NCBI RefSeq assembly: GCF_018729255.1
Contig: NZ_CP076060.1
Span: 1 to 64,000 of the forward strand
From: Cupriavidus sp. EM10
GTDB taxonomy: Bacteria; Pseudomonadota; Gammaproteobacteria; Burkholderiales; Burkholderiaceae
DNA length: 64,000 nt
Reading direction: 5' to 3'
The translations under genes and the position numbers were made by a program. The notes under the pieces are model-generated. The model did not search any database and was not told where the DNA came from. It saw only the letters and a list, made by a program, of their open reading frames with translations. Of this stretch, positions 5,190 through 35,878 are shown piece after piece; the first letter of the stretch is position 1; each line of letters starts with the position of its first letter.

Positions 5190-5194
5190 ACCGC
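5190..5194 (+). repeat. Target-site duplication, left copy (ACCGC)
   Basis: ACCGC directly precedes the 5'-TGT terminus of the transposon and is repeated exactly at 35874-35878 after the other terminus. A 5-bp duplication is the hallmark of TnsB/TniA-type transposition. Confidence 0.88.
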
Positions 5195-5263
5195 TGTAGG
5201 AAACCGGAATTGGCTGGACTACATGCGCTTTTGCTGGACTAGAAATCCGGAATTGATTGGACT
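5195..5263 (+). repeat. R-like transposon end with three clustered transposase-binding motifs
   Basis: Three copies of one motif lie within 69 bp: 5195-5220 (AACCGGAATT...GGACT), 5227-5240 (a partial copy, TTTTGCTGGACT) and 5243-5263 (ATCCGGAATTGATTGGACT). The outermost begins with TGT at the insertion junction. Closely packed sites are typical of the Tn7 right end, the end next to tnsA. Confidence 0.75.
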
Positions 5264-5865
5264 GCCGTGACGCCGCGTCGCGAGTGCCATAGGCACTTCA
5301 GTTCATTTATAAGTTTCTGGTGGCGAGTTCGAATCTGCAGCTATCGCCAATAAATCAAGGGGTTACAGAGATTTTCTGTAACCCCTTGTGCATTCTGCGC
5401 TTGTCCATTTTGATCTATATCCAGCTCGCTCCTCGCCGCAGCTCGATGCTCCATTTGCTCGTGTGGTACATCGGTCCTGGGCGATCGCTGTATTGAGTCA
5501 TTCCAAGAATCAAATGTCGGCGGCACGACGGCTCTACACGAGTCTCCAACATACTGGACTACCTCCGAACCCGGCTTCAGGCAAGAAAAGTGGCATCAAT
5601 GGCGCTCGTTGCTGCCCAGGGAAAGCGGAGATGAGAGAGGCCTGGGCGGAACGCCAGATCGGAAGCAGCGGCGCTCTCGCGAGGCCAGCCAAGACAGAAG
5701 ACCACGCCAAGACTGGAAGTGTCGGGGAAAAATCGACGGAGAACGGTCTCTCGTCTATGCAGCAGCCATCCTGTGGGAAAATTGGCGAATTTTGGCAATT
5801 TCCATCCATAACCTCGGAGGCCCCGTGAACGCACACCGAATCATGCCTTCGGGGAGAAGCGCCTG
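5264..5865 (+). other. Non-coding stretch inside the transposon with tRNA-3'-end-like sequence and hairpin
   Basis: No convincing gene. At about 5333-5350 the sequence GTTCGAATC, nine bases, then CGCCA followed by AATAAATC looks like the 3' end of a tRNA (serine type), but the T-stem does not pair well and no acceptor 5' half is present. A perfect 13-bp inverted repeat (AAGGGGTTACAGA, 5-nt loop) lies at 5357-5387. This could be a remnant attachment site of an older island or a terminator. The rest, 5390-5865, shows only low-quality open frames. Confidence 0.35.
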
Positions 5866-8800
5866 ATGGAACTGATCGACAACATCAGCCGTTTGCTCGG
5901 CGACGACCTCAAACAAACCGTTAGCCCCGGGGCCCGACTGAAGATTGCGGCGTCGTGCTTTTCGATGTACGCCTACGAGGCACTGAAGGCTGAGCTGGAG
6001 AAGATCGAGGAGCTGGACTTTGTCTTTACGTCGCCTACCTTTGTGGCCGACGAGGTTACCGACAAGATCCGTAGAGAGCGCAAGGAGTTCCACATCCCCA
6101 AGCTCGATCGGGAGCGCAGCCTCTTCGGCAGCGAGTTTGAAATTCAGCTGCGCAACAAGCTCACCCAGCGGGCGGTTGCCAAGGAGTGCGCCGACTGGAT
6201 ACGACGCAAGGCCAAGTTCAGAAGCAACCGCACCAAAGCGCCAATGCAGCAGTTCGCCTGCGTGCAGGCTGGCGTTTCCGACACGGCCTATATGCCTCTG
6301 CACGGCTTCACCGCCGTCGATTTGGGTTACCAACAGGGCAATGCAATCTCCAATCTGGTCAACAAGATGGACGAAGCCCCTTTGCGGCCACGTACGTGAG
6401 CCTGTTCGACCAGATCTGGAATGACCCCGAGAAGCTGGAGGACGTGACCGCACAGATTTGCGAGCACATCGCCTCGGTCTACCAAGAGAACTCACCCGAG
6501 AGCATCTACTTCCTGATGCTCTACAACATCTTCAACGAGTTCCTCGACGATATCGATGAAGACGTCCTACCGAACGACCGCACCGGCTACCAGGACACTC
6601 TGATCTGGAACAAGCTCTTCAATTACCAGAAGGATGCCGCGACCGGGATCATCAACAAGCTGGAAACCTATAGCGGCTGCATCCTCGCCGACAGCGTCGG
6701 CCTCGGCAAGACCTTCACGGCACTGGCCGTCATCAAGTATTACGAGCTGCGAAACCGCTCGGTGCTGGTGCTCTGTCCCAAGAAGCTCGCCGACAACTGG
6801 CTCAACTACAACCGCAATCTAAAGACCAACATCTTTGCCCGCGACCGCTTCAACTACGACGTGCTTTGCCACACCGATCTGAGCCGCACTAGCGGCGAGT
6901 CGTTTGGTACGCCGTTGAACCGCATCAACTGGGGCAACTACGATCTGGTCGTCATCGACGAGTCGCACAACTTCCGTAACAACGACGCCTACAAAGACAA
7001 GGAAACGCGCTACCAAAAGTTGATGCGCAAGGTGATCCAGGAGGGCGTAAAGACCAAGGTGCTGATGCTCTCGGCCACGCCGGTCAACAATCGTTTTAAT
7101 GATCTACGCAATCAGCTGGCGCTGGCCTACGAGGGCGACTCGGAAAATCTCAGCAAGATGCTTCGCACCGGCAAGAGCGTCGAGGAAATATTCCGAGGCG
7201 CGCAGGCTGCCTTTAACACATGGTCAAAACTTCCGCCGGAAGAACGTACCGCGCGCGCGATTCTGGATTTGCTCGATTTTGATTTCTTCGAATTGCTCGA
7301 TAGCGTCACCATTGCGCGTTCGCGCAAGCACATTCAGACCTTCTACGACACCCGAGACATCGGTCAATTCCCTGAGCGCCGCAAGCCGCTGTCATTCCAC
7401 TGTCCCTCACCGAGCGGTCGGATGTGCTGGGCTTCAACAAGATTTTCGAGCAGCTCTCCCTGCTCAAGCTGGCGGTGTATGCGCCCATCAGCTACATCCT
7501 GCCCAGCCGCCTGAAGAAGTACGAGGAAATCTACGACACCAAGGTCGGCGGCAAGGGCACGCTGCGCCAGGCTGACCGGGAAAAGAGCCTGCAAGCCCTG
7601 ATGACGGTCAACCTGCTTAAGCGCCTAGAAAGCTCGGTGGAATCCTTCCGTCTCACCCTACAATCGCTTCGAGCCAACAACGAAAACACGCTGGCCAAGA
7701 TCACAGCCTTCAATCAAGCCGGCGGCCCGGCCACGGTGGGCGATCTCACCGAAGTGTTGGAAGTGCTGGATGCCGAAGACGATGACCTGCCGATACTGGG
7801 CGGCGACGCTGGAGAGATCGGTGGGAAGGTCAAGATCAGCCTTGCCGATATGGACCTGCCGTCCTGGGAACACGAACTCAAGGTGGACTTGCAGGTCATC
7901 GATGCGCTGCTGGCCTCGATGAACAAGATCACACCGGAGGAGGATGCCAAGTTGCAGCACCTCAAGGCGCACCTGCTCGGAAAAATCGCCAACCCGCTCA
8001 ACCCCGGCAACAGAAAGGCGCTGATTTTTACCGCCTTCGCCGACACCGCGGATTACCTGTACGCCAACCTCGCACCGGAGCTGCTGGCCAAGCTCTCCAT
8101 TCACAGCGCCAAGGTCACCGGCAAGGGTGCGCCTCAATCCACCATCAAGAGCGCCACGCCGAAGCGCAGCTACGACTTTCAGGAGCTGCTCACCCTGTTT
8201 TCGCCGCGCTCAAAAGAGAAAGCCGTGGTGCTGCCGGATGAGCTCCACGAGGTCGATCTTCTGATCGGCACCGACTGCATCTCCGAAGGCCAGAACCTAC
8301 AGGACTGCGACTACCTCATCAACTACGACATCCACTGGAACCCGGTGCGCATCATCCAACGCTTTGGACGGGTGGATCGCATCGGCTCGCCCAACAGCAG
8401 CATCCAGCTGGTCAACTACTGGCCCGACATTTCACTCGACGAGTACATCAACCTCAAGGAGCGCGTCGAGAGCCGGATGATGATTGCCGACGTTACCGCC
8501 ACGGGCGACGACAACGTGTTGTCCGCGCAGGCCAACGATGTGTCCTACCGCAAAGAGCAGTTGCGTCGCCTACAAGAAGAAGTCATTGAGCTAGAGGATC
8601 TGAAAACCGGCGTATCCATCACCGACTTGGGCCTCAACGACTTTCGCATGGACTTGCTCAACTACGTTAAAGCCCACGGCGAATTGAGCAGTGCGCCCAA
8701 TGGGATGCACGCCGTGGTTGCAGCTAGGCCAGAGATGGGGCTGCAACCGGGGGTGATCTTTACGTTGCGCAACCGCGATTCTGGTATCAACGTCAACCAG

Positions 8801-9154
8801 CACAACCGCCTGCATCCGTACTACCTCATCTACATAAACCGTGAGGGGGAAGTCATCCACGACCACACCGAGGTCAAGCGCCTGCTTGATCTGGTGCGTA
8901 CCTGCTGCAAAGGGCAGGAGATGCCAATTCCAGAGATTTGTCAGCGCTTCAATGACGAAACGGCGGATGGCCGCCGGATGCAGGCGTATTCAGACCTCTT
9001 GGGAAAATCCATCCGCTCGATGATCGAAGTGAAAGAAGAAAAGGATCTCGACAGCCTATTCAGCGGTGGCAAGACCACGGCGCTGACCAACACCATCTCT
9101 GGCCTGGATGACTTTGAACTCATCAGCTTCCTTGTAATTCAGGAGGCGGGATGA
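5866..9154 (+). CDS. SNF2-like helicase with N-terminal PLD-like domain (two apparent frameshifts)
   Basis: This large superfamily 2 helicase is the first gene of a four-gene restriction cassette. Residues 1-180 resemble a phospholipase-D-like module (conserved K and MPLHGFTAVDLGY region). The helicase core has motif I ADSVGLGKT, motif II VIDESHNF, motif III MLSATPVNNR, and C-terminal motifs LIGTDCISEGQNLQDC and IIQRFGRVDRIGS. The frame breaks at about 6377-6380 (CCCC for expected CCCCC) and 7403-7405 (CCC for CCCC); repaired, the product is about 1,096 residues. The ATG at 5866 has GGGGAGAAG upstream. The stop overlaps the next start as ATGA. The helicase assignment is firm; its role in restriction is inferred from neighbours. 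Confidence 0.85.
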
Positions 9155-9852
9155 GTCAGGGCGCGACCACACAACAAGAGCCCGCGCTGATCGCTTATCC
9201 CAAGCAGGCAACCTTTGGGCGAGTTCTGCCCAAGAACAAGATCTACGAGCGCAGTGGGGCCAATACACGACTGAAAGACTTGTTTGTCGAGCAGGTGGAG
9301 CAGATAGTTTGGCAGCACAAGCTCGCACCGGAGACCATCAACCTGCCTGCACGGCCCGGCGTACCGGAGATTCAGATCTTCAGGATCCAGCTGAAAACGC
9401 CTGAGCTGCACAGGGATGTTCTGCGCTGCATCGACGGTGCTGTGCAGTTCCCCATTGTCTTCGAGCTGCACCGAGGCCAGGGCGATCTTGGGCAAACACA
9501 GGTGGTCGCGGCTTACAAGCGTCCAAGCGAAGTAGATGGCAGCCGCTGGGTGCTATCGGACTACTTCGCCACCAACTGGCTGCCGGCTGCGGGTCTCCGC
9601 ACCCCGATGCCGCTGGCACTCGACATGGCTCATCTCTATACGGCCTTGCTACAACACATGATCCCGTTGCCGGCACGTCCTCAGGAATCGATGGCAGATT
9701 GGGTGGCCCGTGTTGAGCTGGCAGCTGCCAAGCGCCGCGAGGTAGAGAAGACTCAAGACAAGCTGGCCAAGGAAAAGCAGTTCAACCGCAAGGTGGAGAT
9801 CAATGCGAACTTGCGGCAACTGAAAATCGAACTTGAACAATTGAGCCGATGA
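9151..9852 (+). CDS. DUF4391-family protein of the restriction cassette
   Basis: A 233-residue protein that I recognise as DUF4391, a family commonly found between a helicase gene and a type III methyltransferase gene; its biochemical role is not known to me. Features are an N-terminal mixed region ending near the NKIYERSGANTR stretch, a central region with ADWVARVELAAAKRR, and a strongly charged C-terminal coiled-coil-like segment (EKTQDKLAKEKQFNRK onward). Its ATG overlaps the helicase stop (ATGA at 9151-9154), and mod begins 27 bp after its stop, so all three are probably translated from one transcript. No frameshift is seen. Confidence 0.72.
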   Translation: MSQGATTQQEPALIAYPKQATFGRVLPKNKIYERSGANTRLKDLFVEQVEQIVWQHKLAPETINLPARPGVPEIQIFRIQLKTPELHRDVLRCIDGAVQFPIVFELHRGQGDLGQTQVVAAYKRPSEVDGSRWVLSDYFATNWLPAAGLRTPMPLALDMAHLYTALLQHMIPLPARPQESMADWVARVELAAAKRREVEKTQDKLAKEKQFNRKVEINANLRQLKIELEQLSR

Positions 9853-9878
9853 GCGGACATCGGCCCAAGGAAGAGAAC

Positions 9879-11837
9879 ATGGAAAAATTGAAAATGCACT
9901 CACCCAATTTCGCACAGGACAACGTCGCGCGCATTCGTGAACTGTTTCCAGGCTGCGTGACAGAGGCCAAGGGCAAGGATGGTGACGTGAAAAGAGTAGT
10001 CGATTTTGACCAACTCCGGCAGGAACTAAGCGAGGTCATTGTTGAAGGTCCGCAGGAGCGTTACCACCTAAACTGGCCCGGCAAGCGCGAGGCGCTGCTG
10101 ACGGCCAACGCGCCGATCGCCAAGACTCTGCGCCCCAGCCCCGAAGAGAGCGTGGACTTCGAAACGACGAAGAACCTATTTATCGAGGGAGACAACCTCG
10201 ATGCGCTCAAGCTGCTGCAGGAGACATACCTCAGCAAGGTCAAGCTGATCTACATCGATCCACCATACAACACCGGCAAGGACTTTATCTACGACGACGA
10301 CTTCCGCGACGACGTGGACAGCTACTTGCGTCAGTCAAACCAGACCGACGATGCAGGGGGCGGCTGGTGGCCAATACAGAAGCCAACGGACGCTTTCACT
10401 CTGACTGGCTTAGCATGATTTACGCTCGCCTGAAACTGGCGCGCAACCTGCTGCGCGAAGACGGGGTTGTCTTCATCTCAATTGACGATAATGAAGTCGA
10501 CAATCTGCGAAAGATTTGCAGCGAGGTGTTTGGCGAGGAGAATTTTGTGGGCCAGGTCGTTTGGCAACGGTCGAAGAAAGGTGATTCAAAGCTCATCGCC
10601 AAGGTGCATGAATACATCCTCTGCTATGTGCGGGATAAGGCGACGGTGCTGGCGAGTGGCGTGTGGCGACGCCCGAAGGAAGGGCAGATCAGGTCTTAGC
10701 GAAGTACGCAGAGTTGAAGGCATCCTTGGCTGGTAACCACGAAGCCATCCGTACGGCGATGATGGCCTGGTATCGCCAGTTGCCGGAAACGGACCCGCGC
10801 AAGGCGCACAAGCACTACAACTGGTCGGATGATCGAGGCCTCTACTTCGCTGCTGACTTTGCTGGGCCTGACGACGGTCGTGAGTCGCGGCCTCGCCATG
10901 ACATCCTCCATCCAGTGACAGGCAAGTCCTGCAAGAAGCCCTCAACTGGCTGGCGCTGGGACGAGGAGAAAACCAAGTGGGCACTGGAGCAGACGCCGCC
11001 ACGCATTCACTTCGGCCCGGATGAGATGACCATTCCAACACGAAAGAGCTACCTGTTCGAGATCGATAGCGAGCCCTTCTCGTCGGTTTTCTATCGTGAT
11101 GGCCGCTCGGCAACGCTGGAAGTCGAAGAGCTAGTCGGTAAAGGATGGTTCCAGTTTCCCAAGAACACTGATGTGCTGGCGGAATTGATTGAATTGACGA
11201 CCAAGCCTGATGACATCATTCTGGATTTTTCGCTGGCTCAGGCAGTACGGGACATGCTGTATTGAATGTGAACGTTGCACATGGCTCTAAGCGCCGCTAT
11301 GTGCTCATCCAGCTTCCAGAGCCGACGGGCCGAACTGGCTATGCGACGATTGCCGAAATCACCAAGCGGCGTTTGCGCCAGGCTGGCAGCAAGATTGCGG
11401 CGAGTCTCACAAGGGTGGGTGTGGACAATGGCTTCCGCGTCCTCAAGGTCGACACGTCCAACATGGCAGACGTCTATTACGCGCCAGACGCATTGGACAA
11501 GACAAACATTGACCTGTTCGTCGACAACATTAAACCCGACCGCACACCTGAAGACTTGCTGTTCCAGGTAATGCTGGACTGGGGCGTTGATCTGGCGCTG
11601 CCGATTTCCAAACAGGTCATCCAGGGCAAGGACGTGTTCTCTGTCGACGACAACGCGCTGGCCGCTTGCTTCGACGCGCACGGCGGTGTCGATGAGGCGT
11701 TCGTGAAGGAACTGGCCAAGCGTCAGCCTCTGCGCGTGGTGTTCCGCGATGCCGGTTTTAAGGACAGTGCCGTAAAGATCAACGTGGAACAGATTTTCAA
11801 GCTGCTGTCGCCTGCCACCGAAGTGAAGTGCATCTGA
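9879..11837 (+). CDS. mod: Type III restriction-modification methyltransferase Mod (three apparent frameshifts)
   Basis: An adenine-N6 DNA methyltransferase that provides sequence recognition for the type III complex and protects host DNA. The beta-class order is visible: motif [14 protein letters not shown] in the N-terminal half, then motif I DFFAGSG (after repair) toward the C-terminus. The start at 9879 ([15 protein letters not shown]) is the usual Mod N-terminus and has AAGGAAGAG just upstream; an in-frame ATG 30 bp earlier is less likely. Single-base losses occur at about 10356-10360 (G run), 10682-10684 (G run) and 11226-11230 (TTTTT for TTTTTT). Repaired length is about 653 residues, normal for Mod. 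If real, the breaks would leave Res without a partner. Confidence 0.87.
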
Positions 11838-11847: not shown

Positions 11848-14800
11848 ATGAAGCTGAAATTCAAGACGCAGGCCTATCAGACAGCGGCCGTGCAGGCAGT
11901 GGTGGACTGCTTCAAGGGACAGCCCCCGGCATCTGCCGAAGCCATGAGTTACCGCATCGACCCGGGTAAGGCCCGACAAGGTGTGGAGGATTTGTTTGGC
12001 GGGGATGGTTTCAAGAACGCCGATCTTGCGCTTTCCGAATCGGCATTGATCGACAACATCCTGGCGGTGCAGCACGGCCAGAACCTGCCGCTGTCAGATG
12101 CGCTGGTCAAGACCAAGGTGGCCAAGGTCAATCTCGACATCGAGATGGAGACCGGCACTGGGAAGACCTACTGCTATATCAAGACGATTTTTGAGCTGAA
12201 CAAGCGATACGGCTGGAGCAAGTTCATCATCGTAGTGCCCAGCATCGCCATCCGCGAAGGCGTGGCCAAGTCGCTGGAGATTACCGCCGAGCATTTTCTG
12301 GAGAACTACCAGAAGAAGGCACGCTTCTTCATCTACAACTCCAAGCAACTGCACCACCTGGAGAGCTTCTCTTCCGATGCGGGCATCAACGTGATGGTGA
12401 TCAACGTGCAGGCATTCGCTGCACGAGGAGCCGACAACCGTCGTATCTACGACGTGCTCGACGACTTCCAGTCGCGCAAGCCCATCGATGTGATTAGTGC
12501 CAACCGCCCCATCCTGATTCTGGATGAGCCGCAGAAGATGGAAGGCGCAGCGACGCTCAAGTCGCTGGAAGAGTTCAAGGCGCTAATGGTGTTGCGCTAC
12601 TCGGCCACTCACAAGACCACGCACAACAAGATTCATCGGCTCGATGCGCTTGACGCCTACAACCAGAAGCTGGTGAAGAAGATCGCAGTGCGCGGCATCG
12701 CAGTGAAGGGGCTGGCGGGCACGGCGGGTTACCTGTACTTGCAGTCTATCGAGATATCAAGCAAAAAGCCGCCCGAGGCGCGCATCGAGTTCGAGCAGAA
12801 GCTGGCGGGCGGTAACATCAAGCGCGTGCTGCGCAAGCTGGGCAAGGGCGACAACCTGTTCGATCTGTCCAACGGGCTCGATCAGTACCGTGATGGTTTC
12901 GTCGTGGCCGACATCAACGCCAACTCTGACACCCTGAGCTTCACCAATGGTATCGAGCTCACCGTAGGGGATGCGACCGGTGATGTGACCGAGGCCGCGC
13001 TGCGCCGTATCCAGATCCGCGAGGCCATTAAGGCACACTTCGACAAGGAGCAGGCGTTGTTCCAGCAAGGGGTGAAGGTGCTCACGCTCTACTTCATCGA
13101 CGAAGTAATCAAGTACCGCGACTACGCTACGCCCGATGAGAAAGGCGAATACGCCCGCATCTTCGAGGAGGAATACCAGCTCTACCTCAACGAGGTGTTG
13201 GATCTGGATGAGACACCGTACATCAAGCACCTCAAAGGCATTTCCGCCGACAAGACCCACAGCGGCTACTTCTCCATCGACAAGAAGAGCAAGCGGTTGG
13301 CCGACCCCACAGTCGCGGCGCGCGGTGAGAACGCCGGGCTGTCCGACGACGTGGACGCTTACGACCTGATCTTGAAGGACAAGGAGCGGTTGCTATCGTT
13401 CGCCGAGCCGGTGCGCTTCATCTTCTCGCACTCGGCCCTGCGCGAAGGCTGGGATAATCCGAACGTGTTTGTGATCTGCGCCCTTAAGCACAGCGACAAC
13501 ACCATCTCGCGCCGCCAGGAAGTGGGCCGCGGCTTGCGACTGTCCGTAAACCAGAGTGGTGACCGGATGGATCACCCTGCCACAGTGCACGATGTGAACG
13601 TGCTGACTGTGGTGGCCAGTGAGAGCTACAAGGACTTCGTCGCCGCGCTACAGAAGGACATCAGCGAGTCGCTGTCGGCACGTCCACGTATGGCGGACGA
13701 GGCCTACTTCACCGGCAAGGTGCTGAAGACGGCGAGTGGCGATGTCGAGGTCACGCCGCAGCTCGCCAAGCAGATCTACAAGTACCTGCTCAAGCACGAC
13801 TACACCGACGACGCTGACCGCATTACCAGCGCCTATCAAGAAGCCAAGAGGGACGGCGCGTTGGCTGCTCTGCCCTCCGAGCTTGCGCAACACGCCGAGC
13901 AGGTCTTCAAGCTGATCGATAGTGTCTTCAGCGAAAGCCAGTTGCCGGAAATTAGTGACGACCGCAAGCCCAAAAAGAACCCGCTCAACGCTAACTTCGA
14001 GAAGCAGGAATTCAGGGAGCTCTGGAATCGGATCAATCGCAAGGCAGCATACAGCGTCGAATTCGATTCCGACGAGCTGGTGCAGAAGGCGGTCAACACC
14101 CTCAACGACAGAGATGTCGGGCTGCGGGTTACTCCGTTGCAGTACACCATCCAACATGGCGAACAGGCTGCCGCAGTGACCTACGATGGGATCAAGGGCG
14201 GCAATGCGTTCGAGTTGAAGGTCACTGAGACGGAGATCAACCGTGCCTCAATCCATTCTGCGGTCAAGTACGACCTGATCGGCAAGCTGAGCGAAGGAAC
14301 ACTGCTGACGCGGCGCACGGTGGGCGAGATTCTCAAGGGGCTCAACGCCGCTGTATTTGCGCAGTTCAAGACCAACCCAGAGAGCTTCATTGCCGAGGCT
14401 GTGCGTTTGATCAACGAGCAGAAGGCCACCGTCATCATTGAGCATTTGGCCTACGACCCAGTCGAGGATAAGTTCGACCTAGACATCTTCACCGCCGGGC
14501 AAACCAAGCAGGACTTCAACAACGCGGTCAAAACGCCTAAGCACCACATCTACGATTTTGTTCTGCCAGATTCCGGGTCGAAGCCAGAGCGCGATTTTGC
14601 GGAGGCGTTGGAGGCTAGTGCTGAAGTCGTTGTGTACGCTAAGTTGCCGCGCGGCTTCCTGATCCCGACGCCGGTTGGCGACTATAACCCCGACTGGGCC
14701 ATTTCCTTCAAGGAGGGCTCGGTGAAGCACATATACTTCGTGGCGGAAACCAAGGGATCGATGTCGTCGATGGATCTGCGTGAGATCGAGAAAACCAAGA

Positions 14801-14910
14801 TCAAATGCGCCCGCAAGTTCTTCGATGAGATGAACCGCCGCTTCGCCTCAGAGAACGTCAAGTATGACGTGGTGGACAGCTTCGGGAAGTTGATGGAAGT
14901 GGTGAAGTAG
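11848..14910 (+). CDS. res: Type III restriction endonuclease subunit Res
   Basis: Res is the ATP-dependent helicase-nuclease of a type III system and cuts DNA when two unmodified sites are engaged by Mod-Res. The 1,020-residue frame is uninterrupted. Walker A METGTGKT lies near residues 100-107, motif II ILDEPQK near 224-230 (DEPQ/DEPH is typical of Res), motif III YSATHK near 251, motif [11 protein letters not shown] near 553, and a C-terminal PD-(D/E)xK nuclease signature NPDWAI...VAETKG near 946-970. The ATG is preceded by a GAGGGGG stretch and follows mod by 10 bp. It is the last gene of the cassette. Confidence 0.93.
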
Positions 14911-16804: not shown

Positions 16805-17194
16805 AAAAGCGACATATTCGTCACCGATATAAATTCTCTTAAACTAAGATAAAAGCCGCGTTGAATGTAAGGGAATCTACTAAGGCATTTCGCGCCGCTG
16901 GTTCCGGCCTTGGTCTTGGCCTGGGGCAAGCGCGAGCGCGGGATGCCTATTGGCAAGGGGTGCGACGCACCCACGGCGTGCGTCCGTAGCCACATCAAAA
17001 TGCCGATCGGGCTCCACTACTCGCGGGATGTCAGGTGCCATTAGACTACATTCGAGTACTGATAAACAGTACAAAAATCTTATATATCAATAAGTTAGCC
17101 AAAATTGTCCTTGGCATGTAGCTCGAAATGTACTCAAATAGCTGCAGAGTACAGTCACTGGGTGGTACTTACTGCCTCTTCCAGGTCCGGCCAG
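16805..17194 (+). promoter_or_regulatory. AT-richer regulatory region upstream of the XRE regulator, with repeated GTACTC/GAGTAC motifs
   Basis: About 390 bp between the divergent unknown operon and the XRE gene. Copies of GAGTAC or its complement occur at 17054-17059, 17130-17135 and 17147-17152, with related AGTAC at 17068-17072 and GGTACTT at 17164-17170. The segment GCTCGAAATGTACTC (17121-17135) recurs almost exactly at 28922-28937 upstream of another cargo gene. These are candidate operators for the adjacent regulator. Confidence 0.4.
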
Positions 17195-17619: not shown

Positions 17620-17885
17620 AAACGGGACAAACCTTGGCGGCTTGCCCCGTCGCTGACCTCGTTGGGAGGCCGATACTTCCAGTTGGCGCTTGAAGTATCC
17701 CTCCTCGCGGTTGGCTGGTCAAGGTCGCCCTTCCATCGATCATCGTCTAGTTGCGGTTTCGCTTTGGGGATAACTACCCAAGGGTGGGAGTTATTACGCC
17801 CGAAAACCGGAGTCTTGTTGGCGATGCCCTAGCTTGGGGTGTTGCTCGACGGTGGTCGCCTCGAAAAAGCGACTAGGGACACTAC

Positions 17886-18855: not shown

Positions 18856-18932
18856 GCCGGGGTTAGGGGTGGGACTGCGCATGGACTAGAACGCCGGCGA
18901 TACGCTGCTTCCTTTTTCAAGGAAGCAAGCTG

Positions 18933-21249: not shown

Positions 21250-21345
21250 TCACCTACGCTACAATCTCCTGACCGCGCAGTACCACCTTCCTTCCCTGAT
21301 CACGTTCGCCGAAACCGCTGATCACCTTCACCGAAATCCGCACGC

Positions 21346-23280: not shown

Positions 23281-24306
23281 ATGACATCAAGCGTTAGCAA
23301 CGATAGGAAAAAGCCCATTTCCGTTACACGGCGAGCCAACTCGCAGATCGATATGTTTGCCAGTAACGCACAGTCACTTCACCTCGCCGACGCAGCCGTA
23401 TTTGAGTTCAGGCGAAAGCTCATCCGATACCCCGCATTCACGAAAGCAGTGCAGGCCATCGAGAGGTGTCACCTATATGGCCGTCACCTGGTCGAAGAGC
23501 CGGATTGTCTTCTCATTACGGGTGTCTCGGGTGCGGGAAAATCAACGCTTCGCAGGACATATGCAGCCAGATATCCGCGACAGGAGTTCGAGGACCGTAC
23601 TGTGATAAAGGTGCTGCAGCTAGAACTTCCGTCGGCGCCGACGATCAAAAATGTCGCAGAGAGGATACTGATGGCCCTAGGCGATCCTCACGCCGACAAG
23701 GGGTCCGCCGAAAGCAGGACGGCACGCATAATTACCCTGTTTAGGGAGTGTCGCGTTGAACTCGCGATGTTGGATGAGTTCCAGCAGTTCGTCGATAACG
23801 CGGGTGGGAAGATCGAGTACAAGGTCGCCGATTGGCTCAAACAATTGATCAACGCCACACGTGTTCCCTTCGTGCTACTCGGTTTGCCTCGCTGCAAACG
23901 GATTCTCGAAGTGAACGAGCAGTTGCGCCGGCGGTTTCTTCCCCAAGCTAACTTGTCACCATTTTCCATCAAGACGAAGGCGGAAGCGATCAAGTTCGCA
24001 GCGTTCCTTAACACACTGCATGCCCAAGCCCCGCTTCGCAGACCATCAGTGTTTATTGAGCCTGCAGTAGTCCCTCTCATGTACTACGCGACCCATGGAC
24101 TTATTGACTATCTGATGAAGCTTACAAGTGTCGCAATAAAGATCGCCCTGGACGAGGAACGCGACTGCATAGATCTCGATGTGTTAAGAAGAGCATTCGA
24201 AAACGCGATATGGGCCCAGGCTGACCGTGAGCGGAACCCGTTTGATGGCAGCTTCATACCTAGAACGCTCAACAAAACTGGCGAGCCATTCAGTGGCTAC
24301 TCTTAA
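23281..24306 (+). CDS. tnsC: TnsC-type AAA+ ATPase of the Tn7-like transposon
   Basis: TnsC is the regulator that links target-selecting TniQ/TnsD proteins to the TnsAB transposase by forming ATP-dependent filaments on DNA. At 341 residues it is the short TniB/TnsC type. Walker A GVSGAGKST is at residues 81-89, Walker B LAMLDEFQQ around 161-169, and sensor/arginine region GLPRCKRILEVNEQLRRRF follows. It is tightly packed after tnsB and overlaps the next gene. No frameshift is seen. Confidence 0.92.
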   Translation: MTSSVSNDRKKPISVTRRANSQIDMFASNAQSLHLADAAVFEFRRKLIRYPAFTKAVQAIERCHLYGRHLVEEPDCLLITGVSGAGKSTLRRTYAARYPRQEFEDRTVIKVLQLELPSAPTIKNVAERILMALGDPHADKGSAESRTARIITLFRECRVELAMLDEFQQFVDNAGGKIEYKVADWLKQLINATRVPFVLLGLPRCKRILEVNEQLRRRFLPQANLSPFSIKTKAEAIKFAAFLNTLHAQAPLRRPSVFIEPAVVPLMYYATHGLIDYLMKLTSVAIKIALDEERDCIDLDVLRRAFENAIWAQADRERNPFDGSFIPRTLNKTGEPFSGYS

Positions 24307-25111
24307 TCGACTGCTTCCGGCAAAGCTCCTTGTCCGGCCGTTGCCGTACAAAGGTGAGAGTCTATTCAGCTATGTCCACAGAGTAGGGGAGCTGAACGGT
24401 CTGACCTCACTAAATTGGGCACCTACGGTGTTGAGCAAGCTAGTGTCCTTCGGGGTCCAGAGCCATCTGCCTATGCTGCTGCTCGCGGAATCGGTCGGAA
24501 TCGACCCCGATCTCCTCTCAAGTATGACCTGCCGGCCAAGATCCACGGCGCTGGGACACGTTGTGGAGTTCATGAATGTTGACGTGCCGAAGAAGCTTTT
24601 CCGCAGAACACGTTCGGCGATTTGCGCAGAGTGCTTGCGCGAGCGAGAAGCTACGCCAGCCGTTCGGGATTTGCGCGTGATCTGCGCGTGTGTGCGGCAC
24701 CGGAAATGGTTGATCGATATGTGCCAGGAGTGCCGTTGCACTCTGGATTGGCGCCGAGAACAATTGGCCAGATGCGGGTGTGGCAGCGATCTTACGCGTC
24801 GTATTCGAAATGATATCGAGCCGCCTGAGAGTGTATTGGTCTTTACCAAAGCGCTGGAAGATTGGCTCAGAAACGATCTTCCGCCAGCTGAGGAGCGCTC
24901 TCGAGGTTTTCAGCGCTTCATGGAGGACTGGCTAGTTGCTGATTCCATACAGCTCTTTCAAAGTGCCGAACGATACGTTAGACGATACGACGGTGAGCAA
25001 ATGACACAACTAGCTTCCACCGAAAATCATTGCTTTGATATACGCGCAGTCCTAACCATTTCGTACATGGCTAGCGGGAGACGGGGGCTTGCTCAAACCG
25101 AGGGGCGTTGA
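24293..25111 (+). CDS. tniQ: TniQ-family target-selection protein (first of two)
   Basis: TniQ proteins connect a target site to TnsC. The TniQ core starts LLVRPLPYKGESLFSYVHR and continues to paired zinc-binding motifs: ICAEC, then CACVRHRKWLIDMCQEC, then RCGCG. I choose GTG at 24293, inside the end of tnsC, because the N-terminus then matches TniQ; earlier in-frame ATGs (24227 region, 24245) would overlap tnsC by up to 80 bp. Length is about 272 residues, much shorter than Tn7 TnsD (about 500), so it may be a simple TniQ without its own DNA-recognition tail. The second tniQ follows 81 bp later. Confidence 0.85.
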   Translation: MATLNRLLPAKLLVRPLPYKGESLFSYVHRVGELNGLTSLNWAPTVLSKLVSFGVQSHLPMLLLAESVGIDPDLLSSMTCRPRSTALGHVVEFMNVDVPKKLFRRTRSAICAECLREREATPAVRDLRVICACVRHRKWLIDMCQECRCTLDWRREQLARCGCGSDLTRRIRNDIEPPESVLVFTKALEDWLRNDLPPAEERSRGFQRFMEDWLVADSIQLFQSAERYVRRYDGEQMTQLASTENHCFDIRAVLTISYMASGRRGLAQTEGR

Positions 25112-27766: not shown

Positions 27767-28893
27767 CTATGAGCGGATCGCCTTTAGCCGCGCCCTGTAG
27801 TCGATGGGCTCCAACTGAAGATTGTTGGTGATGCTCCCGCGTAGGATGAAGAGCTTGGGGGCAGTCGCAAACTCAAAGACGCGATAAAGACAAAAGGTAT
27901 CACCGGCTTCGTCGGAGAACTCCTTCTCATTTCGCGTAATCATGAATGGGGTTAGTGGTCCTCCATTCGTCGTCTTCACTTCGATGAAGCGTGCAAGTTC
28001 TGACGCTTCAAATGAAAGAATGTCGTAGCCAGTGCCATCACCAAGCCTATCCGAGAGCCAGTCAACCCTGAGCGCGAGATCAGGCCGTTGCTCCTCAACC
28101 AATCTGCGCTGCTCGAAGCCTATAACCCAGCCTTCTCCGCTGTGACCAAGTCGACGATTTCGTTCGTCGCGAGCCGCATAATCAAATTTCGGGGCAAGCG
28201 GCTCTTTGCGGCAGGTGACCGTAGTGCTTCGACTACGGGTGGGTCGACCAACACCCCTTTGAATAGTTGATCGGCGGGGGCAGTTTGAGCTTCCAAGTTA
28301 TCCAGAACAGACTCAACTTGCCTTCCATGAGTTTGTACATGTTCAAGAACGACCTGGCGAAGCAAATCCTGTAGGTTCGGCCGTGGCTTGTATCCCTTAA
28401 TATAAGGTAGGCCGACCTGATCAAGGACAGCAGAGATATTCTGATGCTTCAGTTCTACGGCGCCCTTGCTTCTTATCTTCAGTATGGCGCGCAGCTTGGC
28501 GTTGTGGTCGCTTTTGTTGTAAGGGGTCTGCTTGGATTCCAGTATCAACATCCGGAAGTAATCCCGTACTGTCGCCTCAACTTCCTCACGAGTCCAATCT
28601 TGGCCAACGCGAACCACATCGAAACCAAGGTCTAACAGCAGCTTTTGCACCGTAGCTTCCCCACCGGAGAAGCTGTCGGAGCCTAGTGGGCCATGATCGG
28701 GAAATGCGTACCCATATGCCGCTCCAACAATCGCCTTGGAGTCGTAGAGTTGGCCCGTCGCGGCGTCCCGCAGCATGTACTCACGTGAGCGCCCGTAACC
28801 ATACTTTTCCAGGAATGCGGTTCGGCCGAGCTCATCAAATTCTTTAAGCGCCAATCTGACGGCAGCAGGATCAGCTAAAGTTCTAATGCCCAT
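27767..28893 (-). CDS. ScoMcrA-head and DUF3883 restriction-like protein (one apparent frameshift)
   Basis: A candidate modification-dependent or otherwise DNA-directed restriction protein. The N-terminal ~100 residues, from LADPAAVRLALKEFDELG to VQKLLLDLGFDV, look like the ScoMcrA N-terminal head domain found on McrA-type endonucleases. The C-terminal ~120 residues are DUF3883, a PD-(D/E)xK-like nuclease relative: GHSGEGWVIGFEQRR, then GYDILSFEAS, RFIEVKTTNGG and FMITRNE. The frame breaks at about 28148-28151 (missing C in GACCTT); repaired length is 375 residues. It follows the proteasome-like gene by 90 bp on the same strand. A GCTCGAAAGTGTACTC motif lies just upstream at 28922-28937. Confidence 0.72.
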
Positions 28894-28983: not shown

Positions 28984-30213
28984 TCAAAGCCTTGCCGCGA
29001 TGGCAAGCGCGGTTTGTTTGAGTTTGCTGCTCAGCTGCAAGCACAACTGACCGCCCACGAAGCCAAGTAGCGCATTTGAAAGCTCACCCACGTCCGTGTA
29101 CATACCTTTGGCCATTGCTGAGCCATCTTTTCGCACAGTCATCCGAATTCTATGAACTTCGATCGGCGCTGAAAATAGATCCATTAAAACCTCGGAGGAT
29201 AGCGGACCCCATAGTCGCGAGGTGCCCGAGCCGTCTTCGGATTGCTCATAGAGTTTGAATGTGGGCTCGATGATGACACCATGAACTTCGTCCGGAGTGA
29301 TTTTCCATCCCCCGCATTCGTCGACCTCCGGTGTTAGCTCATACGGGTCAAGCCCGAGGTTCAGGACGGTGAGAGAATATCGCTGGGATGGTAGGGTTGA
29401 GCGGGGAGGGTCTATGAGTTCAAACATCTCAGACAAATGAACACGAGTTGCGAAAACTCTGTGATCTTCGACCTTCAGGTGAAGATCTATGCGTGGACGC
29501 ATCGGCCGTATGCCGAACGTCTCGATGCCGTACCACTCATAGAAGCCACCGCATTGAGCGCCAATTGGAGTAGTCTTGTTGAGGCCATTACCGACGAGGC
29601 TCTCCTCGTATAGCATATCGGATGAAATCTGCTCAGCGAGGTTTTCAGTAGCGGATATCCGAATGGTCGCTGGCCACCCACCATCCTTAGAGATCCTTAT
29701 GTCCGTGGATTGAATGAGATTGGCCACCAGTGACGCTCCTGTGCCCGCAACGTAGCACGAGCCGAAGTTGACTGTGTCGAGTCTCGTCGCGTTGTGCACG
29801 TAAGCTTCGCGTCGGCCATTTTCATCAATAAGAACACCCAACAGCGCAATATCGGCCGCACCAGCTGTATGTGCTAGCACTCTATCCACCAGAGCGCGAC
29901 GCACACGTACTGAGCTGTCGTAGAGCGCGACATTCGCTATAGCGTCAGACAGCTCCGCCCAGAAGTTGAACGCAGTGCGACAGTCACCTGCGAAGACTAG
30001 TACTCCGGAGGAATTTGGCAGAAAGAATGATTTACGCCCTAGGCGCGTGATGTGCCATGGCTCATCATCGCTTCCCCATTCGGAACGGATGCTACCTAGG
30101 GCGGGAAGCCATACTATTTTGCTCTGGCGAGGATCTCGGCCTGAAGCTGACAGTAGTGAGTCCGCTACTACATGGGGCGACGATTCGGGGTTCAGTAGTG
30201 CGATTGCCGTCAT
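28984..30213 (-). CDS. Predicted proteasome/HslV-like Ntn-hydrolase with large C-terminal extension
   Basis: The first ~180 of 409 residues resemble the HslV/20S beta fold. After Met removal the chain would start with Thr; VVADS puts an Asp at mature position 17, as in proteasome beta subunits, and a Lys lies at 31 (usually 33). VFAGDCRTAFNFW parallels the HslV FAGGTADAF segment, ALLGVLIDENGR the next strand, and CYVAGTGASLVANLI the GSGG helix start. The remaining ~230 residues are of unknown fold. Thus a peptidase or self-processing amidase is likely. No HslU-like unfoldase is nearby. It precedes the ScoMcrA/DUF3883 gene and may form an operon with it. The fold call is my pattern reading, not a search result. 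Confidence 0.6.
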   Translation of the reverse strand: MTAIALLNPESSPHVVADSLLSASGRDPRQSKIVWLPALGSIRSEWGSDDEPWHITRLGRKSFFLPNSSGVLVFAGDCRTAFNFWAELSDAIANVALYDSSVRVRRALVDRVLAHTAGAADIALLGVLIDENGRREAYVHNATRLDTVNFGSCYVAGTGASLVANLIQSTDIRISKDGGWPATIRISATENLAEQISSDMLYEESLVGNGLNKTTPIGAQCGGFYEWYGIETFGIRPMRPRIDLHLKVEDHRVFATRVHLSEMFELIDPPRSTLPSQRYSLTVLNLGLDPYELTPEVDECGGWKITPDEVHGVIIEPTFKLYEQSEDGSGTSRLWGPLSSEVLMDLFSAPIEVHRIRMTVRKDGSAMAKGMYTDVGELSNALLGFVGGQLCLQLSSKLKQTALAIAARL

Positions 30214-31734: not shown

Positions 31735-32616
31735 TTACTGATCCAGCGATACTGTCTGCACAATCAGTTCAAACTCCGAAAGCAGGTCAGGTTGCCGCTG
31801 CCGGAGGAAGTTTGCGACGGACTCGTTCTCTAGTAGCCTCGCCAGATACCCTTTGGCGAGAACAAGGTTGAGGATATCTTGCCCATATGTTTGCTCCACG
31901 AGACGATATTGGCCCTGAAGGTTGGTCATTTCCCTTTCCATTTTGGCCATTTGCTCCTGACTAATGCCAAGGAGTTTGCTGGGCTTCTTCCCATCGATTA
32001 GCAGTTCGACCGGTGTGGCGACGAGCAATGCCTCTGCATAGGCGACTGTGAGGTTGTTGGCGGATACCATCAACTCAAGACATTCCACTTGTCTCGTGGG
32101 CTTCATCTTGCGAATCACGCGGCCTAGCTCTGGCGAAAACTGCTGATCCCTGAGCAACTCCGTCGCCTCTGGACAAATCCCATTCAGCAGATTGATCTTC
32201 TTCTGAATGTGGGTGATGTCCACGCTGAAAGCTCGCGCCAAGCGTTCGGGAGACACACCTCGCTCGATCGCCCTCCGCAACATGAAGTGCTCCTGGATTG
32301 TGGACAGTCGATTGATTCGATTGTTGTACGTGTAGGCTTCGTCATCGGTCGCAATCAGGCAGGCCGCCTCAACGAAGCCCAGATCGCGTAGAGCGATGAG
32401 TCGTATGTGACCGTCGAGCAGGACATGCTGCCCGGACTGTTCGTTCGCGGGCGTTACGGTCAATGGCTCGATGAGGCCGACCTCTTCAATGGAGGATTTG
32501 ATCTGCTTGAACTTCCTAGAAGTGTCCAATCCCTCGGGAATGCGACGTGACGGAAGGATGCAGGCAACCGCCAGGCAGCGAGGTTCCGGAATGAAGCCGA
32601 GTGTGATGCCACTCAT
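31735..32616 (-). CDS. RepB/ParB-like partition protein, third gene of recombinase module
   Basis: A 293-residue ParB-superfamily protein. The N-terminal ParB/Srx domain has SSIEEVGLIEPLTVTP and VLLDGHIRLIALRDLGF, with the catalytic-type DGH(I)R in place of the usual GE/HRR. The central HTH has GVSPERLARAFSVDITHIQKK, and the C-terminal region resembles the RepB family of partition proteins. Its ATG overlaps the stop of the upstream ParB gene (ATGA). Such proteins may bind DNA as CTP-dependent clamps or be nucleases; which applies here is unknown. Confidence 0.78.
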   Translation of the reverse strand: MSGITLGFIPEPRCLAVACILPSRRIPEGLDTSRKFKQIKSSIEEVGLIEPLTVTPANEQSGQHVLLDGHIRLIALRDLGFVEAACLIATDDEAYTYNNRINRLSTIQEHFMLRRAIERGVSPERLARAFSVDITHIQKKINLLNGICPEATELLRDQQFSPELGRVIRKMKPTRQVECLELMVSANNLTVAYAEALLVATPVELLIDGKKPSKLLGISQEQMAKMEREMTNLQGQYRLVEQTYGQDILNLVLAKGYLARLLENESVANFLRQRQPDLLSEFELIVQTVSLDQ

Positions 32617-33518
32617 TTTGAGTACCCTCCTGCCAGAACTCGCTCCGACAAGTACCTAGGCAGCGTTGCAAGATCTTCCGCCCGAAGGAGGTTGACGAAA
32701 TTTTCGTCGGCAAATAGTTGACGCAGTGCGCCTACTACGAACAGTAATCTCTGTTGTGCGAACTCTGCCTTTCGCACCATAGCCCGCTGGCGCTCCACTT
32801 CGTTCTGATACGTTCTAACCAGGCTGGAAGTTGACACGTCTGTTCCCGATCCTCGAGGCATACGGCGAGTCGCCGTACGGCCGAGCGTTTGTCGACGCTC
32901 AATGATGCGACGGGCATCCATCAACTGCTTCCCCCGCAGCTTGCCTGTCTCATACGCGTCTTGAAGGGCGGCCTGGATGGCCTTGTCGTCGTCGCCGGCT
33001 CCAACAATGGTCATGGCAGCGCTGAGAGGAATCGTTCCCTTTTCAACGGCTACAAGCAGTCGCTCTTCTCCCTGCTGCAACAGCGTGAGGATGCCATGAA
33101 CATAGGATTGTCTAAGGCCAGTCTTCTCCGCAATTACCTTTGGTGCATACCCTTGTTCATGCAGTTGCCGGATACCTGCGAGTAGTTCCAATGAACGACA
33201 CTGCCGTCTTGCTATGTTTTCAGCCAGACTCATGATGAAAGCGTCTTCATCACTCACATTGACGACCAGAGCCGGGATCATCGTTTCGCCAAGAGAGCGA
33301 AAGGCTTTCAATCTGCCCTCACCACAAACCAGCATGTACCGTTCACCGCCGTCCGGGGCTGGCCGTGGAGTCACGGTGATGGGCTTCTTCAGTCCGATGG
33401 TCTTGATGTTGGTGACAATCTCTTCAAAGACCTTGCCGTTGCGCTCTCGGGTATTGAGCACCTCCACACGGTCAATCGGTACCATGCGTACTTCACCAGG
33501 TATGGGACGCTCGATCAT
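32613..33518 (-). CDS. ParB N-terminal-domain protein, second gene of recombinase module
   Basis: A 301-residue ParB-family protein starting MIERPIPGEVRMVPIDRVEV. The ParB/Srx domain shows IVTNIKTIGLKKPITVTP and LVCGEGRLKAFRSLG (GEGR motif), then the DNA-binding helix-turn-helix APKVIAEKTGLRQSYVHGIL. The start at 33518 is chosen because it overlaps the recombinase stop as ATGA and has a GGAGGGCAGC site. Coupled overlaps at both ends mean the three proteins are made together, probably as one functional unit. Confidence 0.8.
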   Translation of the reverse strand: MIERPIPGEVRMVPIDRVEVLNTRERNGKVFEEIVTNIKTIGLKKPITVTPRPAPDGGERYMLVCGEGRLKAFRSLGETMIPALVVNVSDEDAFIMSLAENIARRQCRSLELLAGIRQLHEQGYAPKVIAEKTGLRQSYVHGILTLLQQGEERLLVAVEKGTIPLSAAMTIVGAGDDDKAIQAALQDAYETGKLRGKQLMDARRIIERRQTLGRTATRRMPRGSGTDVSTSSLVRTYQNEVERQRAMVRKAEFAQQRLLFVVGALRQLFADENFVNLLRAEDLATLPRYLSERVLAGGYSK

Positions 33519-35097
33519 GCTGCCCTCCTGAGCTTTGCACGGGCAGCCATGCCATAAAGATAGTCGAGAGTATCGAATCGATAGCTCTCGAATTCTGCGG
33601 GGTTCCTTTCCGCGAGATTGATGCGTTGCCTGGAGAAGTCCAGGTGAGGCAGGAGGTAGTAGTCCATCGGCGCGGTGTTTTGCTGGTCGAGTCGAACGGC
33701 AACAGTCACATCGGGCAGCAGACTGGTGTCGAAGCGAACTTTCCATCGATTGCGCCCGCTCAAGGACGTTTGGCAACGAGCAAGGACAATTGAGACCGAG
33801 AACTCTCCATTGATGGCGAGTATGTCCGTTGCGGGATCTCGCTTGACGCATCCGCCAAGATCGGCGATTCGATGCTCTGTGTCTTCGACAATATCCGGAT
33901 GAAGCTTCCTTAGGAAGCGGTTTGCCTCAATGTAACGGTAGTCGCGCGCTGGCGTGAAGCCAACGACTTGGTAAGCGCGAATTAGGCTTCCGAACCGGTA
34001 GGTGTAGACGGACGAAGACGGCATGCCCTCGGTCTCATCAATGATCAGGCCAGAAAGAATCCCCCGGCTCTTGTACAGAGCGCGCAGACGCTCAATCAGC
34101 TCGTCTTCGGAATACGGGCCCGTGCTCGCATGATTCCTTGCGCGGTGTAGAAGATATCTGCAGGCACGATCGGCTCGAACGCATGCTCTTTCCTGATCCA
34201 CATCTCAGGTGTATTTACAACGCGAGCCTTCTTTAGCTTGTAGGAAACGCGGTTATAGACGTTGTTGCCAATGTACTTCTCGTTCGTCAGTACCTCCCTC
34301 ACAGTTGATCGGCTCCAAGGTCGACCGAAGTCGGTCTCGATGCCCATGCTATTCAAGCGAGCAGCGATTTCGTATTCGTTGAGTGCTTCATTGATGAACC
34401 AGGTGTAGACGAGGTTGATGGTGCGAGTCTCGCTTTCCGGCCCCGGCATCAGAATGACGCGGTCTGTTTGAAGGCTTTTGTGTTCACCCCTGTCTAAAAC
34501 CCCCTTCATGACACCATGTTGATCCACAAGTACGCGACGAAGGCCAAAACCTGCAGGACCGCCTTGGCGAAAACCGAGCTCGATTAGACGGCACTGGCCG
34601 GCGAATACCTTGGACGACAGCTCTCGGCTGTACTCGCCGGCCATCGCACGTTTCACACCTTTGACGATGGTGGAAACGGGCGATCCATCATTCTCGAACT
34701 GCTCAGCGCAATATGCGACCTGCATACCCGCGCGGCGGCAGATGTATTCGTAGTAGGCGCTTTCGTCGGCGTCTTGGAATCGGCCCCAACGACTTACGTC
34801 GTACACCAGAATGACTTGGTAATCCGCGGATCCGGATTCGACGTCGTGGATCAGCTCTTGGAGAGCTCGGCGTCCATCAATGCGCAGCCCACTTTTACCT
34901 TCGTCAGCGTAGGTCTTGATGATGGACAGTCCCCGATTCGTGGCGTATTCCTGGATCTTGGCGCGCTGATTTTCCGTCGAGTACTGCTGGTGCTCCGTAG
35001 ACATGCGAACGTACTCTGCCGCGCGAACGGTGGATTCTGGTGCCGCGTCAGCTTGTATGGCGCACGACTGCATGATGTCGACTCGCTGCTTTCGCAT
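33515..35097 (-). CDS. Large serine recombinase (one apparent frameshift)
   Basis: A resolvase/invertase-type recombinase with long C-terminal region. AAEYVRMSTEHQQYSTENQ carries the catalytic Ser (in VRMST) and the conserved Arg; VYDVSRWGR and AMAGEYSRELSSKVF follow, and the Recombinase domain includes LVYTWFINEALNEYEIAARLN and NEKYIGNNVYN. The frame breaks at about 34110-34113 (one T missing in CGTTATTCC); repaired it continues YSEDELIERLRALYKSRG to a DNA-binding tail, about 527 residues. I place the start at ATG 35097; GTG 35112 and ATG 35073 are alternatives. It is the first gene of the ParB-RepB module. Confidence 0.82.
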
Positions 35098-35165
35098 GCT
35101 CACAAGGATCACGCCGGGCGATCAACGGGCATACGAACTAGTTTTAGCAAAACGCCGCAGCCGCG

Positions 35166-35618
35166 TTACACGTCTTCTCTTTGCAATCGATAGTCCGACG
35201 CTGGAACATACTGTAAGGCAACGATTCGGACCAACCAGACGTCCATCTTGCGACGAGGGTGAATGAAGGCCGGGGCTAGCATGTAAACGTTAGCGAGCGA
35301 GGATGATGACGGCTTACAGGCGTCCATCTTTGCAAGACGTTTCGTGGATGTGCGCCGAATCTGTTGCGCGCGATTGCGGGCACTATAGTCGGGGTGTAGC
35401 TGACGGTACGATTTCCAGTAGTCCGGATGACGTTGTACCCAAGCCGCCTGAGCTCGAGCTTGGTTCTCTTTGTAGTCGGGATCCGACGCTCTGCGCGCTC
35501 GCTGCCATTCGGCGCGCCGGCGCCGCTGGCATTCCGGCGATGAGCAATATTGCTGGGCTGGTGACTGCGGGCGAACGTCAAAGAAACAGCCGCAATTGGC
35601 GCACTTTCGGATCTCCAC
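35166..35618 (-). CDS. Small zinc-finger protein next to the recombinase
   Basis: About 150 residues. It starts MEIRKCANCGCFFDV and continues with QQYCSSPECQRRRRAEWQRARR, a C-x2-C...C-x4-C zinc finger followed by a basic helix, then tandem HPDY motifs (ASDPDYK, RHPDYWKSYR, LHPDYSARNR) that suggest a short repeated DNA-binding element. The GTG at 35618 is preferred; the frame is open slightly upstream. It precedes the recombinase operon on the same strand by about 70 bp and probably belongs to it. Function unknown; DNA binding is inferred from composition. Confidence 0.6.
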   Translation of the reverse strand: MEIRKCANCGCFFDVRPQSPAQQYCSSPECQRRRRAEWQRARRASDPDYKENQARAQAAWVQRHPDYWKSYRQLHPDYSARNRAQQIRRTSTKRLAKMDACKPSSSSLANVYMLAPAFIHPRRKMDVWLVRIVALQYVPASDYRLQREDV

Positions 35619-35738
35619 GGTTACCCCCGTCTGCAACGAACGGAACAGGCAAAGCGCCGGTGATCTGGCTGTGGGCGTGGCGGATGCCGCACGCGATGGT
35701 TCTAAGCCGAAAAGTGGCCTAAGATACTCTTGTCCGGC

Positions 35739-35873
35739 AGTCTCACTAATTCGTGCATGAAATCACGCCAGTCTCACTTTTTCCGTTCTTTGCCAGGCAT
35801 AGCCAGGACGGATTAAGTTGGCAAGTCCTTGATTTTAGGGGAGGTCCAGTCTCACGAATTCCGGTTCCCCACA
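35739..35873 (-). repeat. L-like transposon end with three spaced transposase-binding motifs
   Basis: Read inward on the minus strand: outermost copy 35873-35848 (TGTGGGGAACCGGAATT...GAGACT), second near 35788-35770 (GGAAAAAGTGAGACT), third near 35753-35739 (CGAATTAGTGAGACT). Spacing over 135 bp resembles the Tn7 left end, where TnsB sites are separated. The terminal TGT abuts the ACCGC duplication. Confidence 0.75.
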
Positions 35874-35878
35874 ACCGC
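35874..35878 (+). repeat. Target-site duplication, right copy (ACCGC)
   Basis: Identical to 5190-5194 and directly adjacent to the right terminus. Removing the element and one copy restores a continuous sequence from the gyrB stop to its terminator. Confidence 0.88.

Follow-up and report, generated by a model that had tools for sequence, protein, structure and literature searches.

A Tn7-like transposon with two TniQ proteins behind gyrB in Cupriavidus, and recurrence of the gyrB site in Burkholderiales

The chromosome start of Cupriavidus sp. EM10 (contig NZ_CP076060.1 of 3.6 Mb, whose first 64 kb form the window analysed here) carries a Tn7-like transposon of 30,679 bp, located directly behind gyrB at positions 5195-35873. 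It is a dual-TniQ element, coding for TnsA, TnsB and TnsC together with two TniQ proteins, TniQ1 and TniQ2. TniQ proteins sharing the C-terminal part of TniQ2 are encoded downstream of gyrB in at least 41 genomes. We consider it very probable that TniQ2 recognises the 3' end of gyrB in the way TnsD recognises glmS, and that this dual-TniQ TnsABC element was inserted there and later frozen by an insertion sequence, ISRme9. The Tn7-like family itself is known; gyrB as attachment site for a Tn7-like transposon is apparently new.

Boundaries and insertion site

The features which delimit the element are as follows.
4684-5181, plus strand: 3' end of gyrB, putative attachment site (NCBIfam gyrB; stop codon 5179-5181)
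5190-5194, no strand: target-site duplication ACCGC, gyrB side
5195-5220, plus strand: gyrB-proximal terminal inverted repeat, beginning with TGT
5195-5266, plus strand: three closely spaced repeats resembling TnsB sites (similar layout in genomes G345, G387, G288 and G313)
5356-5388, no strand: 14-bp hairpin within the gyrB-proximal end, possibly a substitute for the displaced gyrB terminator
35738-35861, minus strand: three more widely spaced repeats resembling TnsB sites, distal end
35848-35873, minus strand: distal terminal inverted repeat
35874-35878, no strand: target-site duplication ACCGC, distal side

A preliminary description of this DNA had claimed a transposon of 30.7 kb with TGT ends and ACCGC flanks, and the boundary is borne out. 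The terminal inverted repeats are identical at 20 of 26 positions, both starting with TGT, and ACCGC on their outer sides presents a 5-bp target-site duplication. When end regions of 3.1 and 3.5 kb were searched against each other, three pairs reached 20 of 26 matches, of which only the 5195/35873 pair combined TGT with identical 5-bp flanks; no pair combined both features in dinucleotide shuffles (n = 30). Each end contains three copies of a GACT-centred word resembling a TnsB site, tightly spaced on the gyrB side and more widely on the distal side, so that both ends show, as sequence repeats, the TGT/ACA termini with several predicted TnsB sites of Tn7-like transposons. Duplication of 5 bp is likewise characteristic of these transposons (ACCGC here, GTTGT in the relative G223). 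According to a review, the end whose sites overlap seems to be the one next to the recognised site (PMC11406308); the tight-repeat end beside gyrB agrees loosely with this.

ACCGC starts 8 bases past the gyrB stop codon and is followed by the TGT end. Because dnaA (1-1029) and dnaN (1197-2474; both NCBIfam) precede gyrB, the element presumably lies near the replication origin. The insertion separates gyrB from its terminator; a GC-rich hairpin with a T run, recognised by eye and absent from the list of the hairpin scan, is found at about 35890, just past the distal ACCGC.

The tns genes and the nested ISRme9

Genes of the transposition module are arranged as follows.
17105-17656, plus strand: helix-turn-helix (HTH) regulator, directly upstream of tnsA in all five relatives with tnsA sequence
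17886-18527, plus strand: tnsA (PF08722)
18567-18654, plus strand: first 29 codons of tnsB, truncated by ISRme9
18655-21342, plus strand: ISRme9 of the IS21 family (istA 18933-20486, istB 20350-21249, 34-bp ends)
21346-23277, plus strand: remaining frame of tnsB, 643 amino acids
23281-24306, plus strand: tnsC (TniB/AAA)
24227-25111, plus strand: tniQ1, short TniQ of 294 amino acids
25193-26539, plus strand: tniQ2, TnsD-like selector of 448 amino acids (PF06527)

The five genes follow one another in one direction, pointing away from gyrB. The Tn7-like core is represented by TnsA with PF08722, TnsB with rve and Mu-transpos_C, and TnsC with TniB/AAA, and two proteins with PF06527 represent selectors of the TniQ/TnsD kind. 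The TnsA translation contains a PD...EVK motif, and the candidate DDE residues of TnsB (D243, D328 and E364) are invariant in all six aligned TnsBs.

An operon tnsA-tnsB-tnsC-tniQ-tniQ had been described between the ends; all five genes are there in this order, but the operon is not continuous, as ISRme9 splits tnsB. Over 2,688 bp, this insertion sequence shows 100% identity with the ISRme9 that C. metallidurans CH34 carries on a plasmid of 171 kb. It is full length and shows the IS21-family traits istA/istB, own ends and own duplication, here of 7 bp (CGCTTGC, 18648-18654 and 21343-21349). The intact TnsB frame of the relative G009 aligns to the window in two blocks (18480-18653 and 21343-23274), and therefore the insertion cut tnsB after about 29 codons. 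The frame of its catalytic part is still open and its own start is lost. ISRme9 is thus a later arrival in the element, and since it splits tnsB, the window copy is probably immobile. Neither this split nor the recurrence of the gyrB site had been noticed in the first reading. The tns genes could also have owned a closer pair of ends, a case raised there, yet the closer pair found is that of ISRme9 itself.

Apparent frameshifts affect gyrB (broken across two frames by an apparent indel), the helicase and methyltransferase genes of the cargo, the HTH gene, tnsA (the last 45 codons of G009 TnsA align in a different frame of the window, 18449-18583) and a MazG-like gene. As gyrB is essential, its indel is probably an assembly error, and the frameshifts together suggest an indel-prone assembly.

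Relatives of the element and uninserted sites

Two genomes, G009 and G345, contain the same operon at gyrB with TnsB and TnsC 76-81% identical to those of the window; three others (G223, G313, G288) contain it at gyrB with TnsB about 50% identical. A TniQ1 relative is located between TnsC and TniQ2 in all five. The preliminary description had proposed to seek the ends, TnsB and TnsC in other genomes, and this search returned the same operon with similar ends at the same place after gyrB, which supports both the assignment to the Tn7-like family and the view of the region as one mobile unit. The element of G223 was delimited independently: it spans 27,562 bp and is flanked by a perfect duplication of GTTGT. 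In G387, TGTAG separates the distal end of one element from the near end of another, so that the two stand in tandem; the gyrB junction of this genome, on another contig, shows the same end type.

Six relatives look uninserted. In four of them (G227, G011, G010 and G013), gyrB is followed by a terminator, as had been predicted for an empty site, and then by the gene found downstream of the element in the window. In the remaining two (G001 and G182) the alignment ends at the gyrB stop or just past it.

Another end type (GTAGGGCGCCAGAGTA... or similar) immediately follows either gyrB itself or a window-type element, in the manner of stacked insertions (loci L149, L150 and L159-L161, and the right-hand flanks of the elements in G223 and G288). 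On one contig (G208:C112; L207, L212), gyrB is followed after about 1.1 kb by a second gyrB 3' end, a frame of 107 codons, which an integrating element of a different kind may have left behind.

Recurrence of the gyrB site

Genomes were sampled from the family (398; Burkholderiaceae, judging by the named loci), genus (60) and order (220) of the window. Of the 398 family genomes, 50 encode a TniQ2-like protein, and in at least 34 of these 50 its gene shares contig and strand with gyrB and follows it at a distance of 4.2-65.9 kb; in the other 16 it is located elsewhere or cannot be placed because of contig breaks. TniQ genes occur in 36 of the 60 genus genomes, and at least 9 of the 60 have one in this position relative to gyrB. 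The order sample yielded TniQ in 42 of 220 genomes, 39 of them outside the family; in seven of these 39 it is found downstream of gyrB on the same strand, as six long TniQs at 4.3-21.9 kb and a short one in G574. One Rhodocyclaceae metagenome-assembled genome adds a further TniQ selector downstream of gyrB. The selectors counted at gyrB thus number at least 41 (34 of the family, one of the Rhodocyclaceae genome and six of other families), all on the same strand as gyrB. Counts of gyrB-adjacent TniQs are lower bounds, with the gyrB positions of 23 genomes retrieved again. A scan of named genomes gave five loci, one of which (L103) was not placeable relative to gyrB.

At the 41 counted junctions, a transposon-type end motif of several different types starts 2-14 bp past the gyrB stop. 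Among 30 gyrB loci of the genus, chosen regardless of TniQ, TG[TC]AG or TGTCG is present within 30 nt of the stop in 14, compared with 84 of 900 control windows. For both counts the patterns were picked after inspection of the data, and a first match may be due to chance. The fixed attachment site characteristic of Tn7-like transposons is accordingly found at the gyrB 3' end in 41 genomes.

Of the 41 gyrB-proximal ends, 26 carry a terminator-like hairpin no more than 220 nt from the gyrB stop, compared with 11% of 820 shuffles, and the elements may thus carry a replacement terminator for gyrB. The window's own end scored negative in this count, its hairpin at 5356-5388 having no T run on the gyrB strand.

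The C-terminal module of TniQ2

The structure model of TniQ2 predicts a TniQ core (residues 1-314), whose fold matches TniQs of I-F3 CRISPR-associated transposons (CASTs; 6lnd, 6v9p and 9gs9), followed by two winged helices at about 319-376 and 377-440. A profile of this C-terminal part matches all 41 counted gyrB selectors; having been built from the window, its lineage and a single relative of 612 amino acids, it provides no independent evidence for the matches within that lineage (6 of 41). Rows classed as undetermined or secondary, among them G574, which is outside the six genomes of other families, are matched in 6 of 11 cases.

Two control sets were compared. In the first, the profile matches none of ten TniQs located elsewhere, nine of which are short proteins (324-378 amino acid frames). 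The second is preferred, because those nine are too short to contain the C-terminus. It comprised 20 stretches, 13 of which gave 17 TniQ open reading frames (ORFs) recognised by profile, the seven without any being left out; here the C-terminal profile matches 2 of 17 (G429 and G472). In a TniQ tree of 53 rows, the gyrB label changes 8 times, compared with a mean of 15.2 on shuffling, and none of 500 shuffles was as low; fragments (the second match of G191, TniQ1 of G288) and a broken match without an ORF in G351 were left out. Deep branches of this tree are weak and long branches meet, so that a single origin of the gyrB selectors is not settled.

The G429 element (L201, L219-L220), a Tn7-like element with TniQ2-like selector, starts exactly at the 3' end of a msrB-like (SelR) gene, and possibly presents a natural retargeting of the gyrB reader. 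Insertion at parE was rejected for both G429 and G472, the parE-like match being on another contig in each. Inspection of the G472 locus identified no insertion site.

Proposed mechanism and alternatives

We propose that TniQ2 acts as site selector, its two C-terminal winged helices binding the conserved 3' end of gyrB. Its TniQ core would recruit TnsC, bringing TnsA and TnsB with both transposon ends, and cut-and-paste insertion by TnsABC 8 bp past the stop codon would duplicate ACCGC. Insertion just beyond the stop would leave the essential gyrB unharmed. Later insertion of ISRme9 into tnsB probably froze the window copy.

Several observations weigh against this proposal. A 5-bp duplication around the whole element was not matched in G009, G345, G313 and G288, partly because other elements adjoin, and the other half of the empty-site prediction, a site with one ACCGC, was not seen among the six uninserted-looking relatives, none of which is close enough. 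The result of the first control is affected by the shortness of nine of its ten TniQs, and the C-terminal profile has some weak matches (the weakest at E 5.6e-4, 12 bits). The TniQs of G429 and G472 have a similar C-terminus and sit away from gyrB; as the G429 element adjoins a msrB-like gene, the winged-helix module is not exclusive to gyrB. Conversely, the 371-amino-acid TniQ of G574 lacks the C-terminal module, yet its gene follows gyrB at 35.6 kb on the same strand.

Targeting of gyrB might instead be due to TniQ1, or to TniQ1 and TniQ2 jointly, and not to the C-terminus of TniQ2 alone. Relatives with the operon do retain both TniQ proteins; TniQ1, on the other hand, has little outside its TniQ domain, and the nine short TniQs of other elements sit elsewhere, the long C-terminus tracking gyrB. 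We regard this explanation as unlikely.

According to another explanation, the region arose by accretion of a Tn7-like core, ISRme9 and a unit of serine recombinase and ParB, and its outer ends do not define one unit. This would fit the later arrival of ISRme9, relatives of the recombinase on plasmids, and better conservation of the recombinase module than of TnsB (81% identity of the serine recombinase and 50% of TnsB between G288 and the window). The outer ends nevertheless match, share a duplication and enclose everything, the core has the same gene order in relatives, and nested cargo is compatible with a single outer unit, which makes accretion improbable.

The 3' end of gyrB could also be a passive hotspot, owing to DNA structure or replication near the origin, with no specific selector involved. 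Tandem insertions and several end types at gyrB agree with such a hotspot, but it would hardly account for the single strand of all 41 counted selectors, the small offset from the stop codon, or the association of one selector type with the site while other TniQ genes of the same genomes lie elsewhere; there is little probability in it. Finally, although IS21 elements also have multi-repeat ends, it is next to impossible that the outer ends belong to an IS21-family element: this was rejected, since ISRme9 is complete at 18655-21342 and has a separate pair of 34-bp ends and a 7-bp duplication of its own.

Beyond the window, the gyrB 3' end is likely a common home of a large, apparently unnamed Tn7-like group of Burkholderiales, characterised by a TniQ with tandem winged-helix reader, different ends converging on the site, tandem stacking, in many members an own terminator, and a retargetable reader (the msrB-like site of G429). 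If so, the group would form a natural series for decoding the choice of DNA by TniQ; a widely used gyrB site means many natural pairs of selector and target, and therefore the DNA-reading code of TniQ would be directly testable. The site also offers candidates for harmless insertion beside an essential gene, and may account for the defence-gene islands located next to the origin of these bacteria.

Comparison with known systems

With Tn7 (TnsABCD, attTn7 at glmS) the element shares TnsA, TnsB and TnsC, a TniQ-family selector, TGT ends with several TnsB-site-like repeats, 5-bp duplication and insertion just past a conserved gene. Unlike Tn7, it is located at gyrB and not at glmS, has two TniQs and a 448-amino-acid selector with two winged helices in the model, and no TnsE family was found among the 38 distinct ORFs, a subset of those in the window, which were scanned with Pfam. 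Compared with the Tn7 TnsD-TnsC-DNA structure (8v32), the TniQ2 model gives a loose match (TM 0.31). The likeness of the model to TniQs of I-F3 CASTs is limited to the core: those TniQs serve Cascade, and the alignment stops at about 314-319, before the two winged helices. No cas family was found among the 38 scanned ORFs and no CRISPR array in the 20 largest of 50 direct-repeat families, and there was no Rfam match; on these findings RNA-guided targeting was rejected.

parE is a paralogue of gyrB, and parE models also match the window's gyrB. One TniQ of Tn7017 (EasCAST, an I-F3 CAST) homes to parE, i.e. also to a gene for the B subunit of a type II topoisomerase; Tn7017 carries CRISPR-Cas, of which none was found in the present element, and the likeness concerns the site (PMC11406308). 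The same review names few chromosomal sites for elements of this kind: glmS, parE and tRNA genes (recognised by proteins of the TniQ family), comM (with a partner protein) and yhiN (details unknown). Loci with two TniQ/TnsD genes, and TnsDs whose C-terminal part contains HTH domains, are already known (PMC10293859). In Cupriavidus itself, CMGI-E of C. metallidurans CH34 is a Tn7-like island with tnsABC and two tnsD, which differs in its location on chromosome 2, away from glmS (PMC3384475).

The main texts of PMC10293859, PMC8649781, PMC10702557 and PMC3384475 do not contain the word gyrB, nor does that of PMC11406308 contain "gyr". In the passages covered of papers which join tniQ or tnsD with gyrB, the latter is a gene for typing, phylogeny or resistance or, in PMC11915867, a neighbour in a contig description, and not a Tn7-like site. 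No naming of gyrB as a Tn7-like site was found in the literature searched, to which supplements and further papers may add one.

Cargo and the distal recombinase module

The remaining annotated features of the element are listed below.
6186-9154, plus strand: SNF2-type helicase in two overlapping frames (PADLOC C3a139, HKD+Snf2)
9151-9852, plus strand: DUF4391 protein
9849-11837, plus strand: type III methyltransferase, spread over several frames
11848-14910, plus strand: type III restriction endonuclease subunit
27767-28893, minus strand: ORF with NO VEIN C-terminus and ORF resembling PDC-S36 and methyl-directed restriction proteins (candidate defence genes)
28984-30213, minus strand: conserved protein without assigned function
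31735-35636, minus strand: distal module of RepB-like protein, ParB, serine recombinase and conserved ORF 35166-35636

The cargo thus includes a type III restriction-modification system, and two proteins of ParB/RepB type accompany the serine recombinase. Restriction genes and a recombinase module had been claimed in the preliminary description and proved real; the proteasome-like gene claimed alongside them had no counterpart among the 38 scanned ORFs. The protein encoded at 28984-30213 has no Pfam domain, and its homologues occur in Pseudomonas, Citrobacter, Pectobacterium and Stutzerimonas.

The module of RepB, ParB, serine recombinase and ORF is also distal in G009, G345 (two copies), G387 and G288; none is present in G223, and G313 has the last ORF alone. 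Because it is better conserved than TnsB in G288, the module has probably been exchanged between elements. The serine recombinase of the window has matches on 219 plasmid records.

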